A stretch of DNA of 62,544 nt from Eubacteriales bacterium. Its GTDB lineage: Bacteria > Bacillota > Clostridia > Lachnospirales > Lachnospiraceae. A program made the translations under genes and the position numbers. The stretch covers positions 1-62,544 of the forward strand of contig JAUNHC010000034.1 of assembly GCA_030524175.1 (NCBI GenBank), written 5' to 3'. How positions within the stretch are numbered: position 1 is the stretch's first letter; each line of letters opens with the position of its first letter. Positions 32 to 61,933 of the stretch are shown one piece after another. A model generated the notes under the pieces. That model ran no database searches and had not been told where the DNA came from. It worked only from the letters and a program-made list of their open reading frames with translations.

Positions 32-84
32 GTGCGCCGCCAGGCGCACAGAAAAACCCCTGACAGCTTATCCTGTCCGGGGTT
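32..84 (-). terminator. Terminator of the first kinase operon
   Basis: A 12-nt stem (55-66 with 73-84) with one mismatched pair near its middle (GGGG run against CCCCT) is followed on the minus strand by five U (complement of 52-56). It overlaps the kinase stop codon. A second GC-rich hairpin, GTGCGCC/GGCGCAC (32-38 with 43-49), follows directly. Together they would end the leftward regulator/binding-protein/kinase transcript. Confidence 0.75.
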
Positions 85-1600
85 CCGGGATATCCAGCAC
101 AATCTGTACTTCCGTCCCTGTCTCCTCACTGCTGAAAACATTCATTGTACAGTGATCTGCGAAGAAGTATTTCAATCGTTTATATACATTTGCGATTCCA
201 ATTTTACCTATCTGTTCCTCATCAGAATCCAGCTTCTGAATCACCTGCCGGCGCACCTGTTCTGTCATTCCCACACCGTTGTCAATGATGGAAATAATAC
301 CTGTCCTGCTTTCTTCCAGGTATTTTGTCTGTACCACAATTTTTCCATTGGTGCTGTAGGTACCTATACCGTGGATGATTGAATTTTCTACTAGTGGCTG
401 TAAAATAAAGCTTGGGATTTCAATCTGATGAAACCTTTCATCCAGAATAAAATCAAATTCGATCCGCTCCCCAAAACGCTGCTCCTGAATATAAATATAA
501 TTTCCAAGCATTTCAATTTCGTATGCCAATGACACACTATGCCCCGAATAGTCAAGATTGTACCGCAGAAGCTGGGCTGTCCTGTGCAAAAGCTCCACAG
601 TCAGATCCGTATCTTCCAGATAAGCTGTCTGAGCGATCATTGTCAGAGTGTTAAACAAAAAGTGGGGATTCACCTGCAGTTGTAAAGTCTTCAGCTCACT
701 TTCCTTCAGCAGTGTACTGATTTTCATATTTTCTTTTTCTTTCTCATGGAGTGCTTTTGTCTTCTCTGCGCTTTCCTCCATTGTCTGAATATGGTCTTTC
801 AGACGGCTGAGCATAAGATTGAAAGCGGAGACCAGGGTTGTGACCTCCTCATAGCTTGGCGGCTCTACAGAAACCACCTGAAACTGCTCCAGTTTTCCAT
901 GGATCACATTTTCCGCAGCATCTGTAAGCGTTCGTAAGGGTTTTGAAATCATCAATGCCATTTTGCCCCCATATATGATCAATAGAAACACACAAACTCC
1001 AAGGAGCAGCAAAAGTAGCATATACGCAGCCTGTACCTTTTCATTCAGCTCCAACTGTATTTTGTTTGCCTCATTGATCAGCGTCACATGAAGATCCTTA
1101 TACTGCCAGCCAATAGCTGTATAAATGCCGCTGGCCTCCTCAAACAAGCTGGAAACAGCACGCTGTGTGTCTGACTGATAATATTTTTCTTTGTCATAGA
1201 TGAATTTTTCATGGACTTCATCTATCTTTTCCCGGTAATAGGTGACCATTGAGCAGATATCCTGCATATCCCTGAAAAATGTACTGCTGATCTCCATATT
1301 GTACAATTCATCCAGTCTCTTCTCCAGTAACTGGTTTTCTTGCTGAAGCCTATCATAAGAAGTATTGGTTCCATACTTTGTATACTCTTTCAGGGCAGCA
1401 TAAGTCTGGTCAAGATGGATATAAAACTCATTTAAGCATAAGACACGTTCCATATTTTCGTTGTAACGCCGGACAGAAACAGAGTTAAAGGACAGAAGCA
1501 GCACAAAAATGATACTGGCACTGCCAAGAAGCAGAAACAGATATCTGCTTAATTTTCCATGGATTGTATTTTTAAAATTTTTCTCTAGTATATGTGCCAT
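68..1600 (-). CDS. YesM-type sensor histidine kinase, module 1
   Basis: This 510-aa membrane histidine kinase autophosphorylates on receiving an extracellular signal and passes phosphate to the neighbouring AraC-type response regulator. Visible order: TM1 about residues 21-43, an extracellular helical region, TM2 about 190-214, a HAMP segment, a short coiled coil, a PF06580 phospho-acceptor domain with NPHFLFN (His313), then an HATPase domain with DNGVGM and GIGIANVYKRL. This is the YesM/LytS architecture. The start overlaps the end of the binding-protein gene by 16 bp, so the two are likely translated together. By analogy with XylFII-LytS-YesN of Clostridium beijerinckii, the anchored binding protein is the probable ligand sensor that contacts the kinase ectodomain. 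The ligand is unknown. Confidence 0.93.
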   Translation of the reverse strand: MAHILEKNFKNTIHGKLSRYLFLLLGSASIIFVLLLSFNSVSVRRYNENMERVLCLNEFYIHLDQTYAALKEYTKYGTNTSYDRLQQENQLLEKRLDELYNMEISSTFFRDMQDICSMVTYYREKIDEVHEKFIYDKEKYYQSDTQRAVSSLFEEASGIYTAIGWQYKDLHVTLINEANKIQLELNEKVQAAYMLLLLLLGVCVFLLIIYGGKMALMISKPLRTLTDAAENVIHGKLEQFQVVSVEPPSYEEVTTLVSAFNLMLSRLKDHIQTMEESAEKTKALHEKEKENMKISTLLKESELKTLQLQVNPHFLFNTLTMIAQTAYLEDTDLTVELLHRTAQLLRYNLDYSGHSVSLAYEIEMLGNYIYIQEQRFGERIEFDFILDERFHQIEIPSFILQPLVENSIIHGIGTYSTNGKIVVQTKYLEESRTGIISIIDNGVGMTEQVRRQVIQKLDSDEEQIGKIGIANVYKRLKYFFADHCTMNVFSSEETGTEVQIVLDIPEPRTG

Positions 1601-2583
1601 TGAATTTCAACGCTCCCCTGTTTATTCTCTGTCTGCTCATCCAGATTCTCTTTATCAATAAGGAGCGTCTCTGTATATATAGAGCTTTCTGTCTGTTCTT
1701 CGCCCTTAAAGCATCTGTTCAGCACCTCCACGGCCTTCTCTCCCATAGAACAGGAATTTTGCTGTATCGTTGCCTCTACCTTTCCTTCCTTCATAGCTTC
1801 AATCGTTGAATCCCCAAGTTCAAATGTAACTACCGTAAGATTCCTTTCCTCATACAACGTATTCTCAAGAAGCTGGCAGATGGCAATGGAACTGGTCCCT
1901 TCTGCACAAAATACTCCCGTAATGTTTCTGTTTTCTTCCAATGCCTCAGAAATAAGGTGTCTGGACACCGATGTGCTGAGTTTCCCTTCCAAAACGGTTT
2001 GGATGGTCATTTCCGGGTATTTTGAAATAGTATCTTTAAAACCATTTAATCTTCCAATCTGATTGGGGTCGTCCAGATATGACACGATCACCACAATATC
2101 CCCCTTGTAGCCACATGCCTTGGCCATACTGTCTGCTGCAGTCTGCCCTGCCAGATAATTATCTGTCCCTATATAACAGTACCTTTTTTCATTACTGATA
2201 TCACTGTCAATAAGAACAATGGGAATTCCCCGCTCGGCTGCCATATCCAGTGCACGGTTGAATTTATCGAAATCTTCAATCCCAACTGTAATGATTCCGT
2301 CCACATCAGCATAGACAGCGCTTTCTAAATTAGAAATCATTTTCTCCCGGTCTGAAACATAGGAGCTGACACATTTCACATCTATCCCCAGTTTTTCTCC
2401 GGCCTGGATCGCACCAAATCCCGCACGTCCCCAATACCCTGTATTCACCATAGGCGCCACAAAAGTGATCCTTTTTTCCTCCTTTTTCACCACCTGTCTG
2501 GGCGGAGCCGTAATCACTCCCAGAGTTACAGCCGCAACTGCAATAGTTGAAATCAAAAGTACAATTAAACTCTTCTTATACAT
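1585..2583 (-). CDS. Membrane-anchored sugar-binding protein, sensor of module 1
   Basis: A 332-aa periplasmic-binding-protein fold of the RbsB/LacI family (peripla_BP_4). The N-terminus is a hydrophobic anchor or uncleaved signal (residues about 5-26) with no lipobox Cys. The mature part begins with a typical RITFVAPMVNTGYW strand, continues with ADVDGIITVG and GIPIVLIDSD, and shows the hinge order of pentose/hexose binders. No permease or ATPase is adjacent; the gene lies between a response regulator and a histidine kinase. It is therefore better read as an extracellular ligand sensor than as a transporter subunit. The ligand (probably a sugar) cannot be named from sequence. It is 21 bp downstream of the regulator gene and overlaps the kinase gene. 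Confidence 0.88.
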   Translation of the reverse strand: MYKKSLIVLLISTIAVAAVTLGVITAPPRQVVKKEEKRITFVAPMVNTGYWGRAGFGAIQAGEKLGIDVKCVSSYVSDREKMISNLESAVYADVDGIITVGIEDFDKFNRALDMAAERGIPIVLIDSDISNEKRYCYIGTDNYLAGQTAADSMAKACGYKGDIVVIVSYLDDPNQIGRLNGFKDTISKYPEMTIQTVLEGKLSTSVSRHLISEALEENRNITGVFCAEGTSSIAICQLLENTLYEERNLTVVTFELGDSTIEAMKEGKVEATIQQNSCSMGEKAVEVLNRCFKGEEQTESSIYTETLLIDKENLDEQTENKQGSVEIQWHIY

Positions 2584-2604: not shown

Positions 2605-4149
2605 TCAGCGCAGCAGTAAGTCCCGCATTTCCCCAATTGTCATGCCTGTGTTTTTCTTAAATACTTTGTAAAAATATGTGGATGACTGGTAACCCACACT
2701 GTTGCTGATATTTCGTATAACTGTATTTTCTGTTTCGATCATAGCAACGGCCTCGTTGATCCTTGCACTGGTCAACAGTTCCACAAATCCCGTTTTCAGC
2801 TTCTGTGTCAGCAGTCTGCTTAAATAAAAGGGGCTTATCCCAAGCTGAACAGCCATATCCTCAAGGGATAAATCCTTATTATAATTTTTCTCTATATATG
2901 CGGCTGCCTGGTTGATATATATCATCCTTCCGTCCGCCTCTTCTTCCAAAATCTCCAGTTTTTTCAGAAACTGCAAAGCTATATTCTTCCGGTCCTCTGT
3001 ATCTTCCAGAGGTGCAAACGCAGTGATGATCTGATGCCAGGAGTATATGCTGTATCCTGCAACAGCCTTGCTGCAATGCTGAAGAAGCAAAGCGGTCAGT
3101 ACGATCTCTTCTCTCTTATTACAGCCTGATTTCTCCCAGACAGTGAGCTGCCATTGTATTAAAGCTGCACTTGCGTCCCAGTCCTTTGCCTTTATACGCT
3201 CCGAAAGCTTCCTGATAAATTGTTCTGTACTCTTATGTACATTTGCTGCATTGTATTTCCCTTCAAAAAAACAGATCTTCCCAGGTGAAGCTCCGTGCAC
3301 GGCAGCAACTGCCTCGCTGAAAGCTTTCGTCATCTCTTCAAAATCATATCTCCATCGGCTGACGCCGAACCGCATTGTGCCGCCCATTTTTTTCTCCACA
3401 AGTGTGCGGTATCTTTCCAGGAGGACAGTGATCCATTCCTTATAATTCTCTTTACCCACAACCTCACCGGGAAAGAAAAACAGAATTAACATATTATCAT
3501 AAATCTTAGTTAAAAAAGTACAGTAACCCTTTAAGGTATCTCCTGCAATTGCACGGGCTGTCTCCAGCTCTTCTCCTTTCACTTTATTCTGAAAATCCCC
3601 GGCAGCAAAAACTCCTCCCCAATAAGTATGATCCATGGTTTCCAGCCAAATGTTAAGCTCCTCCTGACGGGGAGTCCCAAGAATAATGGAAGAGATCACT
3701 TCTCTTCCTGCAACCTCCTGCATTTTTTGAAAAGATTCTGCTTTTTTCTGTTCCTGTAAAACACTGGAACGTTCCCGCTCTATCACACGAAGTACCTTTG
3801 ACAATGTTTTTATCAGAACTTCCCGTTTTACCGGCTTCAGCAGATAATCTACAGCGCCAAGTGAAATGGCTCTCTGGGCATATTCGAAATCATTATATGC
3901 CGTACATATAATAATTTTTGTACGTTCCGAGCGCATACGTATGATTTCCATTGCTTCCAGTCCATTTAATCCGGGCATATTAATATCCACAAGAATAAGA
4001 TCTGGGTCATATTCCTGTACACTTTTAATTAAATCTGTCCCGTTATACACACTGGGCAGGATTTTAATATCCTTTATATTTTCCTGAACCAGCATTTCCA
4101 GTCCCCTGCATTCAATGGCTTCATCATCCGCTATCATAATTGTATACAT
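2605..4149 (-). CDS. YesN-type response regulator with AraC output, module 1
   Basis: A 514-aa response regulator. The receiver domain (1-120) has the acidic pair IADDE, phospho-acceptor Asp55 in LILVDINMPG, and Lys in LLKPVKRE. A long middle region (about 130-395) of unknown function is common in YesN proteins. The C-terminal AraC double helix-turn-helix (about 405-514) contains ISPFYLSRLLTQ and SVGYQSSTYFYKVFKKNTG. It starts ATG with AAGGAGAG upstream and is first in the leftward trio. Likely targets are the divergent secreted carboxylesterase 265 bp away and its own operon; this is inferred from position. Confidence 0.93.
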   Translation of the reverse strand: MYTIMIADDEAIECRGLEMLVQENIKDIKILPSVYNGTDLIKSVQEYDPDLILVDINMPGLNGLEAMEIIRMRSERTKIIICTAYNDFEYAQRAISLGAVDYLLKPVKREVLIKTLSKVLRVIERERSSVLQEQKKAESFQKMQEVAGREVISSIILGTPRQEELNIWLETMDHTYWGGVFAAGDFQNKVKGEELETARAIAGDTLKGYCTFLTKIYDNMLILFFFPGEVVGKENYKEWITVLLERYRTLVEKKMGGTMRFGVSRWRYDFEEMTKAFSEAVAAVHGASPGKICFFEGKYNAANVHKSTEQFIRKLSERIKAKDWDASAALIQWQLTVWEKSGCNKREEIVLTALLLQHCSKAVAGYSIYSWHQIITAFAPLEDTEDRKNIALQFLKKLEILEEEADGRMIYINQAAAYIEKNYNKDLSLEDMAVQLGISPFYLSRLLTQKLKTGFVELLTSARINEAVAMIETENTVIRNISNSVGYQSSTYFYKVFKKNTGMTIGEMRDLLLR

Positions 4150-4414: not shown

Positions 4415-5995
4415 ATGAAAATCAAAAGATTTGCCCGTACACTCACTGCTGTCGGTATGACAGCCGCCATTCTCAGCGCATCCCCGGCCTATGCTGCAGA
4501 CTCCATGAATCCCCCTACCACTCAGGTGGCACAAGGACAGTTACGGGGTTACATGGACGGAGACACCTATGCATTTCTGGGAGTACCCTATGCAAGTGTT
4601 CCGGAAAGATTCGCACTGCCGGAAGATCCCCAAGCCTGGGAAGGTGTTCGTGATGCACAGGCTTACGGCGCAATCTGTCCTATACCGGAGCAGACAAGTG
4701 TGGGTGACGACGAAATGGTATGGCCCCACCGCTACTGGATCCAGAACGAAGAATGCCAGTTTTTGAATATCTGGTCACAGGATATTGACAGCACTGCAAA
4801 AAAACCGGTCATTGTATTTATGCACGGCGGCGGTTTTAATAACGGCTCCTCCATAGAAGGTGTTGCTTATGAAGGCAAAAACCTCAGTGAATACGGAGAT
4901 GTGGTGGTAGTTACCCTCAATCACCGTTTAAATGTCCTTGGTTATCTGGATCTTTCTGCTTATGGCGGAGAATTTGAAAATTCTGTTAATCTTGGAGACG
5001 AAGACCTGATCCAGGCTGTGAAGTGGATCAACGAAAACATTGAAAACTTCGGCGGTGATCCTGAAAACATCACGATCATGGGACAGTCAGGCGGCGGAAG
5101 AAAGGTACAGTCCTTCATGCATTATGACAAAGCAGAGGGCCTGGTTGATAAGATCATTTCACAGAGTTCTTCCGGTTACAGCCTGGTTGACAAGGAAATC
5201 AGTACTGCAGTGGCAGAAAAAACTCTTGAAAACCTGGGACTTGACGAAAATTCTGTAGCAGAGATCAAGACTGTTCCCTACAGTGATCTCATCACTGCCG
5301 GCGTAGACGCATTGGCTGCTGTTAAAGAAGAAACAGGAACTTCCGTCTCCTGGGCTCCTGTAGAAAATGAAGGTGTTGTCTCTGAGGAATACTGCGACTG
5401 GGCTGCTGATATCCCGCTCATGGTTGGTTCCACACTCACAGAACAAACCGGCTCCTTCCGTGTTGGTGACGGACGTAAAAATGAATGGACCGACGAAGAG
5501 GTACTGGCAAATGTAACCGAAAAGTATGGCGACAAGGCAGAAGAAATCATAGCTGAGTTTGCCAAGGCTTATCCCGACAAAAAAGCGGCAGATGCATTCT
5601 TCTACGGCGCATCTCACCGGGAGAATTCCAAAAAGATCCTGAATGGAAAAGAAGAAGCAGGAACCGCTCCTGTATACAGTTATATGTTCTCCTATGAAGC
5701 CCCGGTAAACGGAGGCACCACAGCCTTCCATTGTGTAGATTTAATTTACGCTTTCCACAATGTTGATATCCCGGTTGTGTCCAGAGCCTGCGGCGGAGAC
5801 GAGGACGCTCACCGCATTCAGGACCAGGTGGCATCAGCCATTGTCAGCTTTGCATCCACTGGTGATCCAAGTACAGACAGCCTGGAATGGAAACCCTATA
5901 CTGCAGCAGAGCCAAACACAATGAGATTTGATATTGAAAGTAAATGCGGAATCATTGAGGATGACACTCTTGGAGAACTTTGCTTAGCTGAATAA
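4415..5995 (+). CDS. Secreted type-B carboxylesterase
   Basis: A 526-aa serine ester hydrolase of the type-B carboxylesterase (pnbA-like) family. A Sec signal peptide (1-28, ending SPAYA) predicts export. The mature part shows the oxyanion HGGGF motif, the nucleophile elbow GQSGGG with Ser225 (family consensus GESAGG), and the FHCVDLIYAF segment carrying the probable catalytic His. Length is normal for the family. A strong AAAGGAGG site precedes the ATG. It is monocistronic, divergent from the module 1 sensor trio, and ends at a strong hairpin. There is no wall anchor, so the product may be free or loosely bound. Substrate is unknown; acylated plant polysaccharides or small aryl esters are reasonable guesses. 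Confidence 0.92.
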   Translation: MKIKRFARTLTAVGMTAAILSASPAYAADSMNPPTTQVAQGQLRGYMDGDTYAFLGVPYASVPERFALPEDPQAWEGVRDAQAYGAICPIPEQTSVGDDEMVWPHRYWIQNEECQFLNIWSQDIDSTAKKPVIVFMHGGGFNNGSSIEGVAYEGKNLSEYGDVVVVTLNHRLNVLGYLDLSAYGGEFENSVNLGDEDLIQAVKWINENIENFGGDPENITIMGQSGGGRKVQSFMHYDKAEGLVDKIISQSSSGYSLVDKEISTAVAEKTLENLGLDENSVAEIKTVPYSDLITAGVDALAAVKEETGTSVSWAPVENEGVVSEEYCDWAADIPLMVGSTLTEQTGSFRVGDGRKNEWTDEEVLANVTEKYGDKAEEIIAEFAKAYPDKKAADAFFYGASHRENSKKILNGKEEAGTAPVYSYMFSYEAPVNGGTTAFHCVDLIYAFHNVDIPVVSRACGGDEDAHRIQDQVASAIVSFASTGDPSTDSLEWKPYTAAEPNTMRFDIESKCGIIEDDTLGELCLAE

Positions 5996-7373: not shown

Positions 7374-7423
7374 AATATTCTTCCTTTCCTGGCATTCATG
7401 CCATATAGCTTTTATTATAAATT

Positions 7424-8860: not shown

Positions 8861-8948
8861 GTTTTTTACTTTTCCCCCTGTTCTTCTCTTTTGTTATTCT
8901 CATTATGTCATGAAAAGAAGGAAAAAAATATGGCAGGCCTTGTGTAAA

Positions 8949-38308: not shown

Positions 38309-38325
38309 AAATGGAGGAATTGATT

Positions 38326-39816: not shown

Positions 39817-41276
39817 AACGTGAATCAATCCGTAAAAAAATGTTCCGGCTGATTTGTATTTTATTAGGAATTCTCTTACTCTTTCAGATCACCCTGCTTC
39901 TCTGCTTTAATTTTCTATTCAAAAATGTAAAAAATACAGTGGATAAGCAGAGTTTGTATACCAGTTATGATTCTGCTGCTGTTTTACTGCAGGACAGTGT
40001 GACCGATTATTTTGACAACCCTACCTCTGAAGCACTTGCTTTCTTAAATGAAAACAAAAAAATAGTCTGCGATTTATCGGAAAACATTTGTGATTTCTTT
40101 CAAAATGCGCAGTTTGAGGATCACGCTATCATCACCAGGGCCTATACCGATAAAATACAAGAACTCACTGACCACATCAGCCAAAATGCCGGCGGCAGCC
40201 CCTTCCTTTTGTATAAGGAATGCTCACACCTGTACGATTTAATGATGAGACAGCACAGTACCACTCTTCCCTTTGAAATGTCCCTGCTGTCGGATAAGCT
40301 CAGCGGAGTATTTGCCTGTTGGAATATCTTCAATATCTTTATCCTGGTGCTGCTGTGTATCGTCTTTCTCATCATTTTTGTCTGCACCTCAAACAGTATC
40401 CGTAAGATAGCAGAACCCCTTTCTCTTCTCAGCACCCACGCAAAGGAATTTGAACGGGGAAATTATGACGACAGCACAACAGATTCACTGCTGAAAACAG
40501 GATATTCAGAAATATATATTCTGACCTCCGCCTTTATCCACATGGAAAATACGATCAAAGAACAGATAACCGCCCTCAAGGACAAAATAGAATTATCCCA
40601 AAAGGTGCATTCTCTGGAATTAGAAAATATGTCTGTACAGATATCACTTGCCCAAACAGAAAATTCACTCATGCAGTCCTTAATAAATCCACATTTTCTT
40701 TTTAACTGCCTGAATCTTCTCACCAGCTTTGCAATCATAGAAAAAGCCCCCAGGGTTCATGAATATTCCCTGCAGATTGCACAATACCTGAGGGAGACGC
40801 TGAACTACAATGGAAAGCAGATTACCTTGGAGAAAGAATTTTCTTTTCTTGAACATTACGCCGCTATTCAAAAACTACGGTTCGGGGAACGTATCTCTTT
40901 TTGTTTTGAATGTGACAACGACTGTAAAAATGCCATTGTACCGGCCATTATCCTGCAGCCGTTAGTGGAAAATTCACTGATACACGGAATTGGCTCCTAT
41001 CTGCATGACGGAAAAATATGTGTGAAAGCACAGAGACATGACGGAGAAAATATCCTGATTACCGTTTGGGACAACGGAGATGGAATCCCACCGGAAAAGG
41101 TGAGAGAAATTACGGAAAACCTTCGTACACCTTTTCAAGCCGGTCAAAAAGGGACCGGCTTGAGAAGTGTGCTTTATCGGTTGGATTATTATTTCAAAAA
41201 ACAGATTTTCTTTCATATGGAGAGCAAGCAGACTGCCACTCAAATTTCAGTCATAATACCATACCGCACAGAATAA
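39813..41276 (+). CDS. YesM-type sensor histidine kinase, module 2
   Basis: A 487-aa kinase: TM1 about 13-34, extracellular helical domain, TM2 about 170-193, HAMP, coiled coil, NPHFLFN with His294, and HATPase with DNGDGI and GTGLRSVLYRL. Starts ATG overlapping the regulator stop. The gene ends ten bases before the stop codon of the convergent surface-protein gene, with no terminator between them, so the two transcripts probably overlap. Confidence 0.92.
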   Translation: MKRESIRKKMFRLICILLGILLLFQITLLLCFNFLFKNVKNTVDKQSLYTSYDSAAVLLQDSVTDYFDNPTSEALAFLNENKKIVCDLSENICDFFQNAQFEDHAIITRAYTDKIQELTDHISQNAGGSPFLLYKECSHLYDLMMRQHSTTLPFEMSLLSDKLSGVFACWNIFNIFILVLLCIVFLIIFVCTSNSIRKIAEPLSLLSTHAKEFERGNYDDSTTDSLLKTGYSEIYILTSAFIHMENTIKEQITALKDKIELSQKVHSLELENMSVQISLAQTENSLMQSLINPHFLFNCLNLLTSFAIIEKAPRVHEYSLQIAQYLRETLNYNGKQITLEKEFSFLEHYAAIQKLRFGERISFCFECDNDCKNAIVPAIILQPLVENSLIHGIGSYLHDGKICVKAQRHDGENILITVWDNGDGIPPEKVREITENLRTPFQAGQKGTGLRSVLYRLDYYFKKQIFFHMESKQTATQISVIIPYRTE

Positions 41277-52739: not shown

Positions 52740-53717
52740 TTATGCTTTTTTATGTCTGAAGCCTGTTAACAGATTCTGGTTCCGCATTGCATCAAGGGTG
52801 ACTGCCAGAAGAATTACAACGCCCTGGATAAACTGCTGATAATAAGCAGATACATTTAAAAGATCCAGTGCATTCTGAATCAGACCCATAATGATAATAC
52901 CAAGGAAGGTTCCGAAGATTTTCCCTTTTCCTCCGCAGGTGACGCTGCATCCGCCGATGACACATCCGGTAATGGCGGACATATCCAGTCCTTTTGCAAT
53001 AGAAACAGGACAGGAATCCAGCCTTGCGATCAGTACAAGACCTGCAAAGGTAGAGAGCATTCCGGCTATGACATAAACAAATAAAATCACTTTGCTGTTG
53101 TTCACTCCCGCAATTCTTGTGGCAGTTGGATTTCCTCCCACTGCATAAATGGTTCTTCCCAGGGAGGTATGTGTGAGGAAAAGTCCGAATATAATAAATA
53201 ATACAATGGTCCAGATCACGGACATGGGAATGCCAAAGACTTTTCCTGCCCCCACTTTCAAAAATCCCTCAGGAAGTCCATATAAGGGCTTTCCTTTTGA
53301 AAAAACAAGGTGAGCGCCTCTTGCCATCTGTTCCAGTGCCAATGTGACAATAAGCGGCGGAATACCTACACGGGCCACTGCAAATCCATTAATGGCGCCT
53401 ACTGCCGCTCCCACGGCCAAGGCTGCAAGCATTGCCAGAAACCAGGGTGTCCCTTTCAGCATAAGATAAGCAGCAAACCATGAGGACAATGCCAATGTTC
53501 CTCCAACAGACAGGTTGATTCCTCCAGTAAGAATCACCATAGTCATGCCGATCGCCGTAATTCCATAGACTGAAATATACTGGATTATATTCGTAATATT
53601 ATTGAATGTAAGAAAATATGGTGATGCAAAGGTCATTGCAATAAAAATCACCAGAATTATGATCAAAAGCATACTTTGTTCCCGGACTAACTGATATCCT
53701 TTTTTTAAGCTCTTCAT
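52740..53717 (-). CDS. RbsC-type sugar ABC permease
   Basis: A 325-aa polytopic membrane protein (about 9-10 segments) of the ribose/xylose-type permease family: TLALSSWFAAYLM, AVGGNPTATRIAGVN (coupling EAA-like loop) and DMSAITGCVIGGCSV. A single gene, so it probably homodimerises. Works with the ATPase 14 bp upstream and the binding protein. Confidence 0.93.
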   Translation of the reverse strand: MKSLKKGYQLVREQSMLLIIILVIFIAMTFASPYFLTFNNITNIIQYISVYGITAIGMTMVILTGGINLSVGGTLALSSWFAAYLMLKGTPWFLAMLAALAVGAAVGAINGFAVARVGIPPLIVTLALEQMARGAHLVFSKGKPLYGLPEGFLKVGAGKVFGIPMSVIWTIVLFIIFGLFLTHTSLGRTIYAVGGNPTATRIAGVNNSKVILFVYVIAGMLSTFAGLVLIARLDSCPVSIAKGLDMSAITGCVIGGCSVTCGGKGKIFGTFLGIIIMGLIQNALDLLNVSAYYQQFIQGVVILLAVTLDAMRNQNLLTGFRHKKA

Positions 53718-53731
53718 AATAACCTCTTTCT

Positions 53732-55228
53732 TCAGCTGATTTTTGCCATCAATGTATTTTTGTTCATCTCATCGGCAGAAACCATCCCCTGAATTTTACC
53801 TTTTTTCAAAATGATAATATCGTCACATACTTCCAGCAGTTCCTCCAGCTCAGAACTGAAAACCAGGACAGCGACACCCTCCTTTGCCATCTCCAGCAGG
53901 ATTTTATATATTTCGGACTTTGCCAGAACATCCACCCCTCTTGTGGGTTCGTCCAGCAAAAACAGCACCGGCTCACTTGCCACACATCTTCCTATCACCA
54001 CTTTCTGCTGATTGCCTCCGCTGAGACTGCCCACTGCCTGCTCCACTGAGGACATTTTCACAGTCATTTTCCTGGACAGGGAATCGCTGTATTCCTTCTG
54101 CTTTTTAAAATTCACAATTCCCAGCTTATTCGTAAACTTTTTCTGTATGGAAAGTGTGGAATTCTCGCGAATAGACATCATAGGGACAAAGCCCTCTGTC
54201 TTACGCTCCTCTGTCACAATAGCCACATGATTTCTCATCATAATTTCAGGTGTAACCCTGGAAAGGGTCTGTCCGTTTAGCACGATTTCACCGGAATTAA
54301 ATTTATCAATCCCCATGATAGCTCTGGCTATCTCGGTCTTCCCTGCACCCAGCAGTCCGCACACTCCTGTAATGCTGCCCTTCTTAATTTTCATATTTAT
54401 ATTCTCAAACCTGCCTTCGCTGCACAGGTTCCTTAATTCCAGAATCACAGGGGCATCTGCCCGTACATAAGACTCCTGACGTCTTCCTGAATCAGCCCTT
54501 TTGCCCATCATTGCAACGATCAGCTCATCCTTTGTAATTTCCTTAGCCTCGAAAACACCGCTGTTTATCCCGTCCTTCAGTACTGTGACACGGTCTGATA
54601 AAAGCAGTACGTCCTCAAGAAAATGAGAAATAAATATAATGGAAATTCCCTGCTGCTTCAAACGGTTCACAATACCGATAAATATTTCTTTTTCCTTTTC
54701 GTTCAGCGAGGATGTAGGTTCATCAAGTACAAGTACCTTGGCATCCATTGTCAAAGCCTTTAATATTTCAATGATCTGCTTTTCCGCTGCTCTTAAATTC
54801 CGCACAATATCCGTGGCATTCATATCCACCTGAATCATGTCAATAAGTTTCTGTGCTTCTTTTATGGTCTCTTTTCTTTTGAAAACTCCCATTGAATTTC
54901 TTTTTAAATTACCCACAAAAATATTTTCTGCCACAGTCAAATCAGGACAGATATTCAGTTCCTGATGGACAAAGGCGATTCCCAATTTTTTTGCATCCTC
55001 TACCTTTTTGATATTTGCCGGTTTTCCATCAAATAAAATTTCACCGCTGTCTGCCGTGTAAAGTCCATTCAGCACTTTGATCAAAGTGCTTTTTCCGGCT
55101 CCGTTGGCTCCCATCAGAGAATGTACCTCTCCCTTACGCAGATGGAAACTTACATCATTTAATACCACGTTTCCGGAAAATGATTTTACGATATGGTTCA
55201 TTTCAACGATATGGTTATTCTTATCCAA
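53732..55228 (-). CDS. RbsA-type double ATP-binding ABC protein
   Basis: A 498-aa tandem ATPase. First domain: Walker A GANGAGKST, degenerate signature LRAAEKQ, Walker B VLVLDEPTSSLNE. Second: GLLGAGKTE, signature SLSGGNQQK, VLFLLDEPTRGVD. TTG at 55228 is taken as start (MDKNNHIVEMNHIVKSF) because GAGGAGAGGAG lies just upstream; an earlier TTG at 55267 is possible. Powers the monosaccharide/polyol importer. Confidence 0.93.
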   Translation of the reverse strand: MDKNNHIVEMNHIVKSFSGNVVLNDVSFHLRKGEVHSLMGANGAGKSTLIKVLNGLYTADSGEILFDGKPANIKKVEDAKKLGIAFVHQELNICPDLTVAENIFVGNLKRNSMGVFKRKETIKEAQKLIDMIQVDMNATDIVRNLRAAEKQIIEILKALTMDAKVLVLDEPTSSLNEKEKEIFIGIVNRLKQQGISIIFISHFLEDVLLLSDRVTVLKDGINSGVFEAKEITKDELIVAMMGKRADSGRRQESYVRADAPVILELRNLCSEGRFENINMKIKKGSITGVCGLLGAGKTEIARAIMGIDKFNSGEIVLNGQTLSRVTPEIMMRNHVAIVTEERKTEGFVPMMSIRENSTLSIQKKFTNKLGIVNFKKQKEYSDSLSRKMTVKMSSVEQAVGSLSGGNQQKVVIGRCVASEPVLFLLDEPTRGVDVLAKSEIYKILLEMAKEGVAVLVFSSELEELLEVCDDIIILKKGKIQGMVSADEMNKNTLMAKIS

Positions 55229-55393
55229 ACTGCCGCTCCTCTCCTCTTTATCTAAAGGGGAAAGCAATGAATCGCCTTCCCCTCTCCAATCATCAGTAAC
55301 AGCATCTCACTGCAAATATGTATTAACCTGAATTCCCAGCATTACCCTTCTTTTCATACATTATGTAGTTTTATATTTTCCCTGTTTGACGGG

Positions 55394-56407
55394 TCACTCC
55401 ACGCTGTATCCCCATAAAGAATCTGAAGCTTCCAGCTCTTCAATATTTTTCTTGCTTACAACATCTCCGCTGTAATAAATTTTTTCTTCAACGTCATTGC
55501 CGTTCAGGTATTCATTGATCGTTTTCACAACATCAGTACCCAGAGTGATCGGAAGCTGTGAGAATGTGGCATCTACTTTTCCTGATTTAATATAGTCAAG
55601 AGTTTCTCCTGCACCGTCTACGGAATAAACACCGATATGTTTGTCCTCTCCTACAAGTCCTGTATATCCGGCTTCATCCAAAGCACTTAAGATTCCGGGA
55701 ACCAATGCATCTGTACAGGTAAAGATCACATCAACATCCTGGGACTGCAGATAAGTCTTGGTGGTTGACATAGCTGCTTCATTACTGTATTCACCGGCAG
55801 ACGGCTCTCCTACGATCGTCACATTGTCTGCTGCTTCCAGAACTTCCTTGACGCCTGCGGTCCTGTCAAGGGTTGGCGTATCGGATAACACGCCTTGGAT
55901 GATCAGAACATTGATATCCTGGTCTTTGTAATCCTCCAGAATGGCATTTCCCATATCGCGTCCAACCTGCACGTTATCTGTCTCAAGTGTTGCCACAACT
56001 TCCCCTGAACCTCTCCGGTCAATACAGAAAACCGGAACACCTGCTGCCGAACATTCATTGATCGCCGTGCCCACTGCTTCACTGTCAATCGGGGAAATAA
56101 CAATGGCATTAGCTCCCTGTGTGACCTGATTCTTTATCTGTGAGATCTGAAGCTCAATGTCATTATTGGGATCAAGAAGTGTTGACTCCCAGTTATACTC
56201 TGCTGACTGCTCTTCCACGCCCTTCCAGCATGCTGCAAAGAAGGTGGTGAACATACTGGGAATAGAGTATGCGATCTTTACATCTTCTTTAACCGCAGTT
56301 GTCTCTTTTGTATCCGGTTCTTTCTCTGCTGCAAATGCAGTTGTTCCAAATGCACTTGTAAGTGTCATCACTGCTGCTAATGTTGTTGCCACTAATCTTT
56401 TCTTCAT
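55394..56407 (-). CDS. Sugar/polyol-binding protein of the Rbs-type ABC importer
   Basis: A 337-aa RbsB-family protein: signal peptide (MKKRLVATTLAAVMTLTSAF, cleavage after AFA), then KIAYSIPSMFTTFFAACWKG, ANAIVISPIDSEA and VPVFCIDRRGSG. There is no lipobox Cys, unusual for a Gram-positive binding protein, so how it stays at the membrane is unclear. First gene of the nine-gene operon. Confidence 0.92.
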   Translation of the reverse strand: MKKRLVATTLAAVMTLTSAFGTTAFAAEKEPDTKETTAVKEDVKIAYSIPSMFTTFFAACWKGVEEQSAEYNWESTLLDPNNDIELQISQIKNQVTQGANAIVISPIDSEAVGTAINECSAAGVPVFCIDRRGSGEVVATLETDNVQVGRDMGNAILEDYKDQDINVLIIQGVLSDTPTLDRTAGVKEVLEAADNVTIVGEPSAGEYSNEAAMSTTKTYLQSQDVDVIFTCTDALVPGILSALDEAGYTGLVGEDKHIGVYSVDGAGETLDYIKSGKVDATFSQLPITLGTDVVKTINEYLNGNDVEEKIYYSGDVVSKKNIEELEASDSLWGYSVE

Positions 56408-57028: not shown

Positions 57029-57739
57029 TTATTGCGTCCTGCGCCATGCTGATGGTGTCATCCCATATTTTTTTGAAAAATTTAACCCGAAGTGGCTGGC
57101 ATCTCTATAGCCAGTCATTTCTGCTATTTCTGCAATTGAATATTTAGGATCGCTTAATAATTTTCCGGCTTCACTCATCCGTACATTTGTAAGATATTCA
57201 AGAAAATTCACGCCCATTTCTTTCTTAAACAAAGCGGAAAAGTAATTGGGACTAATATAAAAGTGCCGTGAAATACTTTCAAGAGAAAGTTTCTCCCCAA
57301 AATGCATGTCAATATACTGACATGCATTGCGCACCAACCCAGAAACTAAATCTTTGTTATCTCCGTTTTTCTCAATCTTTTCTGCAATACATCGAAGTGC
57401 ATCATTTAATTCTTTTTTATCAACGGGCTTAGGAAGAAAATCCTCTACATTTAATCTCATTGCCTGGCGGGCAAATGCAAAATCTGTATAAGCGCTGGTA
57501 ATGAGAAAGTATGGCTTTAACCCCATTTCCAATGTTTTAGCTATAATCTCCAACCCGCTAAACACCGGCATTTTAATATCTGTTATTACAATATCCGGCC
57601 GTTCTCTTTCAATCAATGACAATAATTGTTGCCCATCCCTGGCTTCTCCCGCCAGGGTCAGACCAAGCCCCTCCCAATCTGTAAACTTCTTCAGCATAAG
57701 CAGTGCCATACGCTCATCGTCAGCAATCACCGTCTTCAT
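57029..57739 (-). CDS. AraC-type response regulator, module 3
   Basis: A 236-aa regulator: receiver domain with Asp54 (IVITDIKMPV) and LPKPVDK, then directly an AraC double helix-turn-helix (ISPNYFSALFKKEMG, TGYRDASHFGLNFSKKYG). It lacks the about 250-residue middle region of the module 1 and 2 regulators. ATG 57739 has GGAGGTG upstream and overlaps the kinase gene by 20 bp. Possible targets: the esterase at 60347 and the ABC operon that follows. Confidence 0.92.
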   Translation of the reverse strand: MKTVIADDERMALLMLKKFTDWEGLGLTLAGEARDGQQLLSLIERERPDIVITDIKMPVFSGLEIIAKTLEMGLKPYFLITSAYTDFAFARQAMRLNVEDFLPKPVDKKELNDALRCIAEKIEKNGDNKDLVSGLVRNACQYIDMHFGEKLSLESISRHFYISPNYFSALFKKEMGVNFLEYLTNVRMSEAGKLLSDPKYSIAEIAEMTGYRDASHFGLNFSKKYGMTPSAWRRTQ

Positions 57740-59231
57740 TTTCTCCACCTCCCTGCTTATCCGATATCGCCGCCCGTCCAGTCGGCGGCAGAAAGTAAAT
57801 CAATGGCATCCTAAAACAAATTTTCGTACAAACCAACGGTTCACTGTCTACCATACAAGTTACTGTACAATCTTCTTCCTCCCGGCAGTCTTTATAAAAG
57901 GATTGCAGCCTTTGAAAGGTATTTACAAGCCCAATCCCTTTCCTGTCATCATACTTCTCCGAATTTTCCAGACGTTCCCGCACTACCTGCAGACGCTGCT
58001 TTTCTATTCCTGCACCATCGTCCTCTACAGAAAGCATCAGTTGTCCATCCTCCACTCCTGCACAGATATAAATCGTAGTTGTCCGTTTCAACGGTTCCAT
58101 GCCATATCCCAGCGCATTCTCACATAAAGGCTGCAGTATCATTGAAGGAACCACTGCCCTAAGGCTTTCATCCTCAACCTTAAGTTTTACCTGAAAACGT
58201 TCCTCAAACCGTGCCTTTTGAATATCCATATAGTCCATGGCATGGCTTATTTCCTCCTCCAGCCTTACTGCCTTATCCAGACAAATCAATGCATAGCGCA
58301 TATATTTCGCCGTCTTCATCAGCATTTCTGTTGTTTTCTCCGCATCTTCTTCTACCGCAAGTCCTGCAATCAGGTTCAGAGTATTAAACATAAAATGAGG
58401 ATTTACCCGCGACTGCAAAAGCCGAAGTTTTGTTTCTGAAAGTCTTTTTTCTAAATCTTTTTGCTTCTTCAAGATATCATAGTTTCTGTTATTTGTTTCT
58501 ATCATCTGATAAAAAGAGTTGTTCAAAATATCCAGCTCATCCCGCAACTCCTGGTGATATCTCATCTCAATAGTCCGTTTTCCCCCGATAATTGTTTCCG
58601 TCTGAGCTGTTAACTCCTGAACAGGCCGCGTGATCTGCATTTCCATTCGGCGGAGCCACCAGATAAAAAAAGCGACCATACAGGTTCCCAGGGCCATTGT
58701 CATCAAATTGAGTCTTTGCCAAAATATTTCTAAGGTTTTCAGCTCCGTATCCAAATAGTCCTGCATTTTTCCGTATAAAGTGTCATATATTCCCTCCAGT
58801 ATCCATCTATATTCCTTTAGTGTATTATACGAAGAAATCCTCTCTTTTGTCCCGGATTGCCCATTCAGAATCTGTTCACCTATCTGGACATATTTGTCTG
58901 TTATCAGCCTCAAATCCTTCATCTCAGGCTGCTCCAAGGTTTTCTCCAGAGTATCGGCCTCCTTTTTTTGTTCCAATAACAGCCTATAACACTCATCTTT
59001 TTCCTTTTCAACCGGAGTCTGGGAATACCCGTACAGAATACGGTCCGCCTCTTGCATTCCATTCCAGTATTTAGTAAATCTGCTGTAATTCAAATAAACA
59101 TCTGAGCTATTTGAACTGAACCATAGCATCAGGCACTGTATAAGCATAAAAATACACGCTAACCCCACAGTTACTATCATACTAAACGAACGGAATTTTT
59201 TCCGGATTGAACGAAACCTCTTTTTATTCAC
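57720..59231 (-). CDS. YesM-type sensor histidine kinase, module 3
   Basis: A 503-aa kinase: TM1 about 17-39, extracellular helical domain, TM2 about 180-200, HAMP, coiled coil, NPHFMFN with His279, HATPase with DDGAGI and GIGLVNTFQRL. GTG 59231 is taken as start: GGAGG lies nine bases upstream and the overlap with the binding-protein stop is then 8 bp; ATG 59240 sits right on that site, and ATG 59261 is further inside. Confidence 0.9.
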   Translation of the reverse strand: MNKKRFRSIRKKFRSFSMIVTVGLACIFMLIQCLMLWFSSNSSDVYLNYSRFTKYWNGMQEADRILYGYSQTPVEKEKDECYRLLLEQKKEADTLEKTLEQPEMKDLRLITDKYVQIGEQILNGQSGTKERISSYNTLKEYRWILEGIYDTLYGKMQDYLDTELKTLEIFWQRLNLMTMALGTCMVAFFIWWLRRMEMQITRPVQELTAQTETIIGGKRTIEMRYHQELRDELDILNNSFYQMIETNNRNYDILKKQKDLEKRLSETKLRLLQSRVNPHFMFNTLNLIAGLAVEEDAEKTTEMLMKTAKYMRYALICLDKAVRLEEEISHAMDYMDIQKARFEERFQVKLKVEDESLRAVVPSMILQPLCENALGYGMEPLKRTTTIYICAGVEDGQLMLSVEDDGAGIEKQRLQVVRERLENSEKYDDRKGIGLVNTFQRLQSFYKDCREEEDCTVTCMVDSEPLVCTKICFRMPLIYFLPPTGRAAISDKQGGGENEDGDC

Positions 59232-60201
59232 TTCCTGCATCCTCCGCTGATTCCAAATCAATAATCTTGCAAGGTACTGTTATTTCTGCCTGAATCAGTT
59301 CCTCTATGTCAGTACCTGAGACTATCTTCCGAAGAAATTCCGCACATTCCTGTCCAGTCTTCTCCGGGTTCTGTACAATCACAGCATCTATGCCCCCTTG
59401 CTGCATCTCCTGCCGGACCTGTTCCGTATAATCAAAGCAAAGTACATAAACATCTTCCGTCCTCCCCTGTTCTGCCAGAACCTTGGAAACGGTAACGCCT
59501 GAAGCTGAATCCAAACAATACATGACATTGATCCCTGGATTTTCGTCCAGATATTTTCTGACTGTCTGCATAGCTTCCAGCGTGTCAGAAGAGCAAATAC
59601 ACTCTGGCTTCACCTGAAGATTTTGGTGGTTTTCTGCCTCCTCCACAAATCCAACCTGTCTCTCTCTACGGCTTCCGGATATTTTACTGTTTCTAAATGA
59701 AGTCGCAACCATCCCTGCCTGTTGGTTTCCCACTCTTTCTGCAATCATTTGAGCTGCCTGAACACCTGCACTCCGATTACCTGTGCCAATAGAGGCACTC
59801 TGTTCATAACTGGAATTATGCCCGTCCACCGCAAGCACAAATATATTCTCATCCTGAAGTGTCCTGAGAATATCCACATCTGCCTCCTCCGGTATATCCG
59901 CTACGATCATCACATCCATATCAAAGGCAACGGCCGTTTTGACTTTATAATCCATTGATTCATACAGGTCTGAGGGCAGGCAGTAAACACTCAGTGAAAC
60001 TGCATCCTCCTCTCCCAGATTCTCCAGGATACTTTGTGTCACATAGGAAATAGTGCTGTTCACGCCGTTTACGCTGGAATAAAACGCAATGCATCGAAGT
60101 TCCTCCTTCCTATCCTCTGCTCTTGTTTTCTCAGTACAAATTAGTATGAAATATAAAAACAATAGGCCCACAACGCCTGCTCGCTTTAAAATACGCTGCA
60201 T
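59224..60201 (-). CDS. Exported sugar-binding protein, sensor of module 3
   Basis: A 325-aa RbsB-like protein with an N-terminal hydrophobic signal/anchor (about 8-24; a Cys is present in FILICTEK but not in a good lipobox). Seen: RCIAFYSSVNGVN opening strand, DMDVMIVADIPEEAD, IFVLAVDGHNSS and GIDAVIVQNPEKTG. First of the leftward module 3 trio, without permease. Extracellular ligand sensor; ligand unknown. Confidence 0.87.
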   Translation of the reverse strand: MQRILKRAGVVGLLFLYFILICTEKTRAEDRKEELRCIAFYSSVNGVNSTISYVTQSILENLGEEDAVSLSVYCLPSDLYESMDYKVKTAVAFDMDVMIVADIPEEADVDILRTLQDENIFVLAVDGHNSSYEQSASIGTGNRSAGVQAAQMIAERVGNQQAGMVATSFRNSKISGSRRERQVGFVEEAENHQNLQVKPECICSSDTLEAMQTVRKYLDENPGINVMYCLDSASGVTVSKVLAEQGRTEDVYVLCFDYTEQVRQEMQQGGIDAVIVQNPEKTGQECAEFLRKIVSGTDIEELIQAEITVPCKIIDLESAEDAGSE

Positions 60202-60304: not shown

Positions 60305-60346
60305 TGTCCATACAATTTGATCAAACTACTCTGATTTGTTAGTTTC

Positions 60347-61933
60347 TTACTGTATCAGCACCGGAATCACCAATGCGTCCTTTTTTTCTGATTCCGTTAC
60401 GGGAATTAACTGAAGCATTGCCTTCCCTGCATGGTCAACAGATGTTGTGACTGTCCAGTAGAGAAAACCGTCTTCGCCCTCCCTGCTTTCACAGTTTACG
60501 GGAAGTGAAATACCATCCTTCAGCATCAGCAAATAATTCTTTACATCTGCAGATGATTTGACAGTAATAACAATTTCTTCTCCCCTGCCTGCTTCCGAAG
60601 TAAATTCCTGAATAAAGCTTCCCTCTTTTTTATACACAATTTCCTGGGGCTTGAGCTGTGGTTTATTATCCTGATCCAGAACAATCAGCTCACCGTTTTC
60701 CGTATTTCTTGCATACTGTGACATGAAATCCCAAGCCACCTGAGCCATGGACTGCGTCATCCAGTGTATCATTCCCTCCACGTTGATCACCTTGATCATA
60801 TTAATATTGTCTTCATTATAAAAATCTGCTGTATAATATTTCGTTCCATCATAATACTGAGTATAAATGGCATCTGCCTCCAGTCCCAGCTTACTCTGTG
60901 CAACATCCTCCGTAGTATCAACAATCTTCTGGCATTCTTCCAGAGTCACCTGACGGTCAATTCCATTTATCTGAAACCATCTGTTCAGTGCATTTGTGGC
61001 ATCCTCCCCGGTGACACCATAACCATAAGGAAGCTTCACACGCATTTCATTATCACCGTCCAGCTGCAAAACTGGTGTTTCTTTTAAAGCATCCCACTCC
61101 TCATCTGCAAAGGTATAATCTGCTCCCTGGCGGATTCCACCCAGATTATGTCCTCCCACGGTAATTGCCGCAAACAAATTAGGGTTCTTAATCGCTTCCC
61201 GAACTGTAGAACGGCCGCCTAAAGAATATCCAGCTCCATAAATACGACTCTCATCAATAGGATATTGTTCTTGGAGAATCCCCATAATGCGTTCAACCTC
61301 AGCATCAAGTGTTGTTCCTTCCTCTTCATCTGCCGCGCCGGCGTTTGCAGCCCATGGAATGACGCAGATAAAACCTTCCTGTGCCGCCAGCTGTGCGTAT
61401 CCATAGGATTCTGTAATGTAAATCGGATTATTTGAACCATGGAATACAAACAAAACCGGCCATGTTTTATCTGCATTCTCCTCTTCGAAAGCTTCCATAG
61501 GAGTGAAGGTTGCCCATTTGCTTGCCTTATCCCCAGCGTCATGTATTTCTTTTTTGATTCCCAGGTTCTCCCAATATTCATATTCTTCTTTGCAATATTC
61601 ATTTGGATATAAGATAAAATTCTTAGTATTATTTACCAGGCTTTCCCCAAGCGGGCTGTTTACAAATGCTTCAAAATCAAATTCTGTCCCGTCAACTGAA
61701 GTCCCGCCCATCTGGCTGTGATGATCGGCAAGAGAATTATAATTATCCCATGTGAAACTATCCGTCTGGGTATACCATAGATATTTATTCTCATAATCAT
61801 ATACCTGCTTTATCTGGATATCCTCCTCCGCCGCCCGTACTGTACAAACTCCTGGCAAAGCCGTAGCAATAATCATCATTCCAGCTGTAGCTGCCGCAGT
61901 AATTTTCTTTAAACATTCACTTGTGTTTTTCAT
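60347..61933 (-). CDS. Secreted PHB-depolymerase/feruloyl-esterase-like hydrolase
   Basis: A 528-aa exported alpha/beta-hydrolase. Signal peptide about 1-34 (TAGMMIIATALPGVCTV, cleavage near RAA). Catalytic core: PVLFVFHGSNN (oxyanion), nucleophile GAGYSLGG with Ser237, and EGMIHWMTQ with the likely His. A C-terminal beta-rich part (about 430-528) may bind carbohydrate. This fold occurs in LpqC/PHB depolymerase and in some feruloyl/acetyl-xylan esterases. ATG behind AAAGGAG. Own promoter and terminator; upstream of the module 3 trio. Confidence 0.88.
   Translation of the reverse strand: MKNTSECLKKITAAATAGMMIIATALPGVCTVRAAEEDIQIKQVYDYENKYLWYTQTDSFTWDNYNSLADHHSQMGGTSVDGTEFDFEAFVNSPLGESLVNNTKNFILYPNEYCKEEYEYWENLGIKKEIHDAGDKASKWATFTPMEAFEEENADKTWPVLFVFHGSNNPIYITESYGYAQLAAQEGFICVIPWAANAGAADEEEGTTLDAEVERIMGILQEQYPIDESRIYGAGYSLGGRSTVREAIKNPNLFAAITVGGHNLGGIRQGADYTFADEEWDALKETPVLQLDGDNEMRVKLPYGYGVTGEDATNALNRWFQINGIDRQVTLEECQKIVDTTEDVAQSKLGLEADAIYTQYYDGTKYYTADFYNEDNINMIKVINVEGMIHWMTQSMAQVAWDFMSQYARNTENGELIVLDQDNKPQLKPQEIVYKKEGSFIQEFTSEAGRGEEIVITVKSSADVKNYLLMLKDGISLPVNCESREGEDGFLYWTVTTSVDHAGKAMLQLIPVTESEKKDALVIPVLIQ

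Follow-up and report, generated by a model that had tools for sequence, protein, structure and literature searches.

To our knowledge, few three-component sensors are in print. XylFII-LytS-YesN of Clostridium beijerinckii manages carbohydrate import according to the passages citing it in PMC10384115. CuaDSR of Ruminiclostridium cellulolyticum also comprises an SBP, a kinase and an AraC-domain regulator, the SBP being sensing-only; its targets are cuaABC-cbpA, a transporter and a phosphorylase, and four reported three-component systems control transporter genes (PMC10384115). A Gram-positive PUL is defined in PMC5320581 by at least one polysaccharide-degrading enzyme, a transport system and a regulator in the locus. 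In the PULs of Roseburia and E. rectale described there, glycan-degrading enzymes are regulated locus by locus, and some of these PULs include CEs and RR[AraC-CheY] regulators (PMC5320581).

The window analysed here is an entire contig of 62,544 nucleotides from a Lachnospiraceae bacterium. From its ORFs and Pfam matches, it encodes three trios, each of an RbsB-like binding protein, a YesM kinase and a YesN regulator, along with three secreted α/β-hydrolases. In each case the genes for a membrane-held Peripla_BP_4 protein, a YesM/LytS kinase and a YesN regulator are tightly grouped, with a hydrolase gene beside them. The three genes are contiguous with no permease in the set, which together with a sensing-only binding protein, a LytS-type kinase and a YesN regulator is the arrangement of XylFII-LytS-YesN. 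It is rather probable, judging from sequence, that three-component systems of the XylFII/LytS/YesN type have been re-purposed, with each unit sensing at the cell surface and switching a single secreted esterase of its own.

Three trios and their neighbourhoods

The original prediction of three esterase-plus-trio sets was borne out by ORFs and Pfam, with RR2 and RR3 identified by custom receiver/AraC profiles in the absence of a Pfam match. The ORF map also gave the gene orders expected, namely regulator-sensor-kinase in trio 1 (T1), sensor-regulator-kinase in trio 2 (T2) and sensor-kinase-regulator in trio 3 (T3). All three esterase translations, inspected by eye, open with a signal-peptide-like stretch, as had been proposed. 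In the trio kinases the outer loop measures some 140-165 aa; by hydropathy there are two TM segments in HK1 and HK2, and in HK3 only one above threshold. The features of T1 are as follows.

HK1, 68..1600, minus strand: YesM/LytS-type histidine kinase (PF06580, 78 bits) with two TM segments (20-38 and 191-209 by hydropathy) and an outer loop of about 150 aa
SBP1, 1585..2583, minus strand: membrane-held Peripla_BP_4 sensor (PF13407, 165 bits) with an N-terminal hydrophobic stretch
RR1, 2605..4149, minus strand: YesN-type response regulator with receiver and AraC HTH (PF00072, PF12833)
EST1, 4415..5995, plus strand: secreted type-B carboxylesterase, divergent from trio 1 (PF00135, 247 bits, cut-off 27)

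The top PDB match of SBP1 is 5xsj (E 1.6e-31), which we take to be XylFII, and its C-terminal tail is WHIY. In NCBIfam, rhizopine, rhamnose, AI-2 and TMAO-system binding proteins are among its top-scoring families, none of them coming near the cut-off. Since the window is the whole contig, the T1 neighbourhood is readable on one side only: no transporter lies on the EST1 side, and the contig ends right after HK1 on the other. A counterpart of T1 in locus L270 has an esterase that is 60% identical and a trio that is 36-39% identical.

Trio 2 contains a putative regulatory site in addition to its four genes.

EST2, 35697..37055, minus strand: secreted CE1-like esterase with a CBM48-like N-terminal domain (PF00756, 61 bits, cut-off 22)
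Candidate operator of trio 2, 37231..37245, no strand assigned: inverted repeat AAAATC-N3-GATTTT between EST2 and SBP2
SBP2, 37343..38308, plus strand: membrane-held Peripla_BP_4 sensor (PF13407, 78 bits)
RR2, 38311..39816, plus strand: YesN-type regulator with receiver and AraC domains (custom profile), 59% identical to the L189 regulator
HK2, 39813..41276, plus strand: YesM/LytS-type kinase (PF06580, 72 bits)

The called ORF of EST2 spans 35697-37145; because an AGGAGG ribosome-binding site lies just 5' of the ATG at 37055, the protein very probably starts there, giving 452 aa. S367, D420 and H463 are invariant across 14 aligned homologues, and EST2 has the properties of a CE1/PF00756 protein. 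In the PDB it lies nearest to ferulic acid esterases and to CE1 proteins with an isoamylase-N-terminal domain/CBM48. EST2 matches the CE1 part of the CBM48-CE1 ferulic acid esterases (PDB 6rzo, 6mot, 7b5v, 6rzn) and keeps their Ser/Asp/His, while its own activity is a prediction; the match extends further N-terminal in 7b5v and 6ne9. The ORF list shows no transporter in the neighbourhood of T2 within the window. All four genes have a counterpart in L189 (67/52/60/59% identity for EST/SBP/HK/RR). The 2.76 Mb of DNA fetched contain three exact copies of the candidate operator; two are in the EST2/SBP intergenic regions of T2 and L189, which align over the repeat. When up to one mismatch is allowed, the window holds two copies against 0.62 expected, that at 37231..37245 being the exact one. 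Among all annotated loci searched, the repeat is absent from every other trio region.

Trio 3 differs in having a predicted sugar transport operon at its side.

ABC sugar transporter, 52740..56407, minus strand: SBP (55394-56407), ATPase (53732-55267) and permease (52740-53717), named by eye
RR3, 57029..57748, minus strand: short YesN-type regulator (custom profile), 78% identical to the L269 regulator
HK3, 57720..59261, minus strand: YesM/LytS-type kinase (PF06580, 85 bits)
SBP3, 59224..60201, minus strand: Peripla_BP_4 sensor (PF13407, 86 bits) with best PDB matches 6gq0, then 5xsj
EST3, 60347..61933, minus strand: secreted α/β-hydrolase upstream of trio 3, no family score above cut-off

The three esterases had been assigned to three families, of which type-B carboxylesterase for EST1 and CE1-like for EST2 stood. 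The label of PHB-depolymerase for EST3 was discarded, as its PHB/PHA depolymerase scores (44.7 and 21.3 bits) are far below the cut-offs of 150 and 107.85. Its PF00756 score of 16 bits is likewise below the cut-off of 22; S237 and H390 are invariant in 18 aligned homologues. The ABC operon, whose SBP carries a PF13407 match at 55496-56275, lies downstream of T3 across a gap of 621 nt and, as named by eye, is followed by genes for two dehydrogenases, DeoR, two FGGY kinases and an aldolase. Because this operon adjoins, the description "without permease" is true of the T3 trio, as of the other trios, but not of its neighbourhood, and the operon may be an alternative or additional target of the T3 switch. 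A counterpart of all four T3 genes in isolate 1XD42-54 (73/58/59/78% for EST/SBP/HK/RR) has no ABC operon within the 13.7 kb fetched.

Set against the described systems, a sugar transporter adjoins T3 and neither T2 nor the readable side of T1. The contrast once drawn with the transporter-controlling trio of C. beijerinckii is not supported as stated, since T3 adjoins a transporter. It applies to T1 and T2, where instead of carbohydrate import genes a lone secreted esterase adjoins on the readable sides. The SBPs of CuaDSR differ in resembling Family 1 SBP structures, and the word esterase is absent from the main text of PMC10384115. The definition of the Roseburia and E. rectale PULs includes a transporter (PMC5320581), which is lacking at T2 and on the readable side of T1; T3 has one, along with an EST3 whose substrate is not assigned. 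Among titles and abstract openings in the open-licence PMC literature, no paper on esterase-paired three-component systems was found.

Frequency of esterases beside trios

A census of SBP trios was made in five genomes, among them the relatives G168, G130, G135 and 1XD42-54, which were picked for holding EST2 homologues. It covers kinases of 390-560 aa and one fused kinase; truncated frames (e.g. C102 in G000; C35 and C85 in G168), YesMN pairs without Peripla_BP_4 and the kinases C24 (G130) and C14 (G168) fall outside it. An esterase lies within two genes of 23 of the 39 short-kinase SBP trios (18 of 39 if only relatives of EST1-3 are counted) and of none of nine long-kinase SBP trios. The count is 11 of 27 once the window and the EST2 pairs used to pick the relatives are taken out. 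In kinase-centred loci, esterase-labelled genes make up 23 of 264 at one to three places and 0 of 218 five or more places from YesM/YesN, a count that favours the near class because near-trio genes were examined harder (via Pfam) than distant ones (via BLAST to references themselves beside kinases). Seventeen of the near genes remain when the reference genes are removed (eight for EST1-3 alone).

The source genome encodes 76 YesM-type kinases; PF00756 and PF00135 each match only three times in it. Within it, four of eight short-kinase SBP trios have a neighbour of the EST1-3 families, against two of 68 other YesM kinases (Fisher p 0.0007). This genome alone is no proof of pairing, because the comparison drops to 1/5 against 2/67 without the window kinases (p 0.2).

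Viewed from the esterases, YesM lies within three genes of EST2 homologues of at least 45% identity in 12 of 18 loci, with four cut by a contig end and two clearly without. Among homologues of at least 33% in genomes of known YesM number, 17 of 21 determinable loci have a YesM, where 1.6 are expected. These distances cover 78 of 79 loci (L256 has no gene), a locus without YesM and with fewer than three genes on a side counting as undetermined; the positions peak within three genes. For EST1 and EST3 homologues in relatives, whose sets are 20 stretches each around the best places of longer lists, YesM is within three genes of a labelled esterase in three loci (L144, L146, L155) and two loci (L125, L142), respectively. 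PF00756 matches occur in 55 of 100 family genomes, with neighbourhoods taken only where the EST2 profile also matched, plus L123. PF00135 at E 1e-20 is present in 28 of the 100, a sample that includes the source genome. In the 53 loci fetched around these PF00135 matches, only three of 61 COesterase genes (L056, L084, L093) have a YesM within four genes, and a crude score of hydropathy gives no signal peptide for most of them. The pairing of esterases with trios is supported by the trio-centred counts; COesterases in the family sample show no such link.

Exchange of sensors and the proposed switch

A kinase tree was built from 38 kinases of 400-560 aa with an SBP4 and a YesN/REC within two genes; L197, L211, L215, L221, L249, L253, L177 and trios fetched later are absent from it. 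The EST2 pairing takes six changes on this tree, at least five of them forced by supported branches, and the EST1 and EST3 pairings take three each. The pairing would thus need to have arisen independently several times. That three similar cassettes came from segmental duplication in one genome would explain why the same gene set occurs three times. It was rejected as scarcely credible, since it is contradicted by the tree, in which the three kinases fall in different parts with kinases of other species nearer. The esterase families, gene orders and orientations differ as well, and the earlier view that this is no simple duplication is sustained.

Identity is strongly correlated between SBP and kinase (0.94) and only loosely between esterase and kinase (0.42). 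Esterases about 60% identical are found beside sensors about 16% identical, which suggests an exchange of sensors under a lasting pairing; if true, this would offer a plain example of regulatory rewiring that is open to test. The pairing has persisted or been rebuilt on many occasions, which suggests a separate chemical switch for each enzyme. In such a switch, modelled on XylFII-LytS, the binding protein would catch a small ligand and dock on the kinase loop, the kinase would phosphorylate YesN, and YesN would activate the promoter of the adjacent esterase. The ligand, the weakest step, would most likely be a sugar, polyol or other small polar part freed by the esterase; release by basal enzyme would give positive feedback. 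Plant glycosides or hemicellulose are the probable substrates from which the esterases remove acyl groups, and a plant-polyphenol substrate is only a lead.

The trios may instead be general regulators of small glycan-degrading loci, one trio to one secreted hydrolase, with nothing specific to esterases, although we consider this fairly unlikely. Trios of 1XD42-54 adjoin secreted GH3 (three) and GH31 plus GH13 (one), G000 and G130 have trios beside ceramidase-like proteins, GH106-like proteins are found next to YesMN pairs with a longer kinase, and ABC transporters are also among the neighbours of trios of this class. The proposed pairing with secreted esterases of different families recurs without duplication and in other genomes, but the same trio class also pairs with non-esterases. 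Even so, the esterase is the commonest partner, at the 23 of 39 given above. A W-H-x-Y-like C-terminal tail, defined post hoc, goes with an esterase link in 12 of 13 SBPs (one a decayed remnant), and SBPs lacking it show such a link in 12 of 26 (p 0.006). Appreciably less probable is that the esterases are bystanders and the trios act on transporters or other genes elsewhere. T3 does adjoin an ABC operon, as in C. beijerinckii, and some homologous esterases have no trio, such as L124 (71% to EST3) and L184 (70% to EST2). Against this, adjacency is kept across codirectional, divergent and convergent layouts, YesM peaks close to the esterase, and the T3 counterpart keeps its esterase in a fetched stretch free of the operon.

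It is also fairly unlikely that the ligand is something other than an esterase-freed sugar; the binding proteins would then read the esterified substrate itself or a compound of polyol, cyclitol, autoinducer-like or aromatic type. The sub-threshold NCBIfam matches of SBP1 and the unrelated sensors of similar esterases agree with this, whereas in the PDB both SBP1 and SBP3 match sugar-type binding proteins best.

Extending the dedicated esterase switch beyond this contig, Lachnospiraceae could possess expandable "one ester, one sensor" modules, a proposal that we regard as possible and still tentative. A branch of XylFII-like sensors reserved for esterases and recognisable by the W-H-x-Y tail (which may dock on kinase or enzyme) would be shuffled among unrelated secreted esterases, so that the bacterium reads acylated plant glycosides via what each esterase frees. 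Gut esterases are difficult to match to substrates by sequence; if dozens of single-esterase sensors exist, those substrates could be found via what each sensor binds.

Several loci depart from the usual layout. In favour of the switch, the kinase, a TM segment and the SBP are fused within one ORF in L177, which gives an indirect hint of SBP docking on the kinase, and a decayed copy has an EST2-like start fused to the SBP C-terminus; the inverted repeat conserved between EST2 and SBP2 points the same way. On the other side, the pair in L205 and in L275 is about 14 kb apart. The plant-polyphenol lead comes from three loci: L128 contains a PF00724 reductase, GH78, EST3-like, EST1-like and GH3; L129 contains YesN, EST1-like, GH78-like and EST3-like; and L245 contains ABC, GH3, EST1-like and EST2-like.

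Trio–esterase units of the window and its genome

ORF, Pfam and profile matches place in the window three contiguous sets of a Peripla_BP_4 binding protein (SBP), a YesM-type kinase and a YesN-type regulator (trios T1, T2 and T3), each adjoined by a secreted α/β-hydrolase, in agreement with the original prediction of three such units. The genes of each trio overlap or almost touch. The type-B carboxylesterase EST1 (COesterase) and the CE1-like EST2 are oriented divergently from their trios, T1 and T2. T3 lies downstream of EST3 and codirectional with it, and an ABC sugar operon comes next, giving T3 both an esterase and an ABC system as partners. The genome comprises 5.95 Mb in 119 contigs, of which the window is one in full (C47). 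Other features of the window are:

6120–11211: GlyA, an alanine/glycine:sodium symporter-like protein and a kinase-regulator pair, together again in L036 (contig C40, same genome)
15141–22289: corrinoid methyltransferase cluster and activator (RACo/MtgA/MtaC/MtrH-like, by eye from translations), with a possible role in O-demethylation of methoxylated compounds
24648–28558: LytTR-like regulator and Agr-like kinase (24648–26699, named by eye), divergent from a GDSL-type hydrolase (26831–28558; PF13472, 55 bits), which makes a fourth secreted esterase-like protein

The genome encodes 76 YesM-type kinases, with 92 Peripla_BP_4 matches and three matches each to PF00756 and PF00135. Eight SBP trios with a short kinase (390–560 aa) were found, the three of the window and five on other contigs:

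C71: immediately preceded by an EST3-like esterase
C114: divergent from a ceramidase-like secreted protein
C46 and C86: ABC transporters adjoin
C108: TetR-like and ABC exporter-like genes adjoin

A YesN-YesM pair with no SBP seen adjoins a secreted COesterase on C51 and a secreted EST2-like esterase (45%) on C89, where the contig ends behind the kinase. No YesM occurred within the fetched stretches of C81, which has two esterase hits, and no labelled esterase lay within two genes of the eight long-kinase SBP trios in the fetched stretches of this genome. Large secreted GH106-like proteins occur near some of its YesMN systems (L047:3433–6519, L049:5995–9459 and L049:10903–15081).

Association of trios and esterases in relatives

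The association was followed from trio to esterase in the source genome (G000) and four relatives holding EST2 homologues.

Short-kinase SBP trios, and those with an esterase within two genes
Genome: trios; any esterase; EST1–3 relatives only
G000: 8; 4; 4
G168: 13; 8; 5
G130 (one kinase-SBP fusion included): 4; 3; 2
G135: 1; 1; 1
Isolate 1XD42-54 (17 of its 31 YesM places covered): 13; 7; 6
Total: 39; 23; 18

One EST1/ESTIG-like gene pair lies between two trios (L270) and was counted for both; a decayed esterase remnant on contig C41 of G168 is additional to the total. The trio-adjacent esterases are of at least five kinds (COesterase, CE1, EST3-like, EstA_Ig-like and AXE1-like). When the window is left out, along with the nine EST2 pairs on which the choice of genomes was based, an esterase stands beside 11 of 27 trios; the long-kinase SBP trios of these stretches give 0/9. 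Esterase-labelled genes made up 23/264 at one to three places from YesM or YesN versus 0/218 at five or more in kinase-centred loci, two of which overlap (L270 and L271). The reference esterases used for labelling themselves adjoin kinases, a bias; when they are excluded, the near count drops to 17 (8 with EST1–3 labels alone) and the far count is still 0.

In the reverse direction, a search of 294 genomes with the EST2 profile (A1) gave matches in 12, the source included; G130 and G135 belong to the genus of the source. SBP-YesM-YesN sets lie beside the EST2 homologue in five neighbourhoods (L104, L105, L107, L110 and L111), and YesM-SBP_bac_1-YesN in L116. Named genomes scanned with an EST2 alignment of 14 members yielded 79 loci, some of the contigs covered above among them. 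YesM lay within three genes in 12/18 loci at ≥45% identity (to EST2 or the C89 esterase), 6/19 at 33–45% and 5/41 below 33%; 2, 7 and 18 loci, respectively, were clearly without YesM, the remainder being cut by contig ends. By gene offset, 24 occurrences fell at 1–3 and five at 4–8. At ≥33% identity, YesM was present in 17 of 21 determinable loci versus 1.6 expected from genome YesM counts with an assumed 8.5-kb reach, and in 7/9 with one locus per genome. This set omits six determinable loci whose genome YesM number was uncounted (L198, L199, L211, L212, L237 and L250), among which only L211 has YesM within three genes.

Among EST1 and EST3 relatives, the trio link mostly persists only in close ones, and not invariably there: homologues 71% identical to EST3 (L124) and 70% identical to EST2 (L184) have no trio. 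By a crude test, most COesterases across the family are not secreted, and YesM was beside 3/61. Five loci (L202, L203, L217, L229 and L245) each hold a cluster of between two and five esterases from different families (EST1, EST2, EST3-like and ceramidase-like), which suggests a shared multi-acylated substrate.

Exchange of sensors and other partners

Counterparts of all three units were identified. For T2 (L189), the esterase, SBP, kinase and regulator are 67, 52, 60 and 59% identical. For T3 (L269, isolate 1XD42-54) the values are 73, 58, 59 and 78%; an AraC gene lies between esterase and SBP, and the ABC operon is absent from the 13.7 kb fetched. For T1 (L270), they are 60% for the esterase and 36–39% for the trio. 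One esterase-trio pair (L205/L275) is separated by about 14 kb, from coordinates, on a single 193,080-base contig and is adjacent in a relative (L192).

The T1, T2 and T3 kinases fall in different parts of a tree of 38 trio kinases, upholding the view that the units are not a simple segmental duplication. Label changes required on this tree number six for EST2 (at least five forced by supported branches) and three each for EST1 and EST3. Sensors appear to have been exchanged beneath similar esterases, because SBP and kinase identities covary (r 0.94) and esterase and kinase identities do so weakly (0.42); EST2 is 60% identical to the EST2 of L185 and L186, with SBPs at 15–18%. A decayed unit at L168:6848–7369 has an EST2-like esterase start running into the C-terminal half of a sensor SBP.

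Judged by its neighbours, this trio class appears to serve other secreted enzymes too. Non-esterase partners in the census were ceramidase-like proteins (2), GH3 (3), GH31 with GH13 (1) and ABC systems (3). Seven trios have no clear partner: C108, L164 (EST1-like gene further along), L167 (contig end), L168 (remnant), L169, L172 and L275.

These are sensing systems of the XylFII-LytS-YesN kind, and their repeatedly re-paired use for single secreted esterases would be a variant. No paper on esterase-paired three-component systems was found among open-licence PMC papers, searched by titles and abstract starts. Trio control of the adjacent esterase, and the ligand, are proposals.

Sensor tails, a candidate operator and kinase architecture

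The C-terminus of many trio SBPs, SBP1 (1585–2583) included, reads W-H-I-Y or, more loosely, W-x-x-Y; the L170 SBP has further residues after WHIY. In the census, 12/13 tailed trios have an esterase link (one by the decayed remnant; the exception is L275, with EST2 14 kb away) versus 12/26 untailed (p 0.006). The association is only a lead, since the tail was defined after the data were seen and rows were sorted by eye. Among the 38 tree rows, W-H-x-Y-like tails are confined to a single supported kinase clade of 23 rows.

Several blocks, including AAAATC-N3-GATTTT, are common to the EST2/SBP2 intergenic region and the corresponding L189 region. The 2.76 Mb of DNA fetched contains three exact copies of AAAATC-N3-GATTTT, two of them in these regions, making it at most a candidate operator.

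In the 36 of 38 trio kinases for which two TM segments were found, the outer loop spans 136–167 aa. In one relative (L177:8386–10776), a single ORF of 796 aa combines a YesM kinase with a TM segment and a Peripla_BP_4 domain; this locus also holds a ceramidase-like secreted protein.
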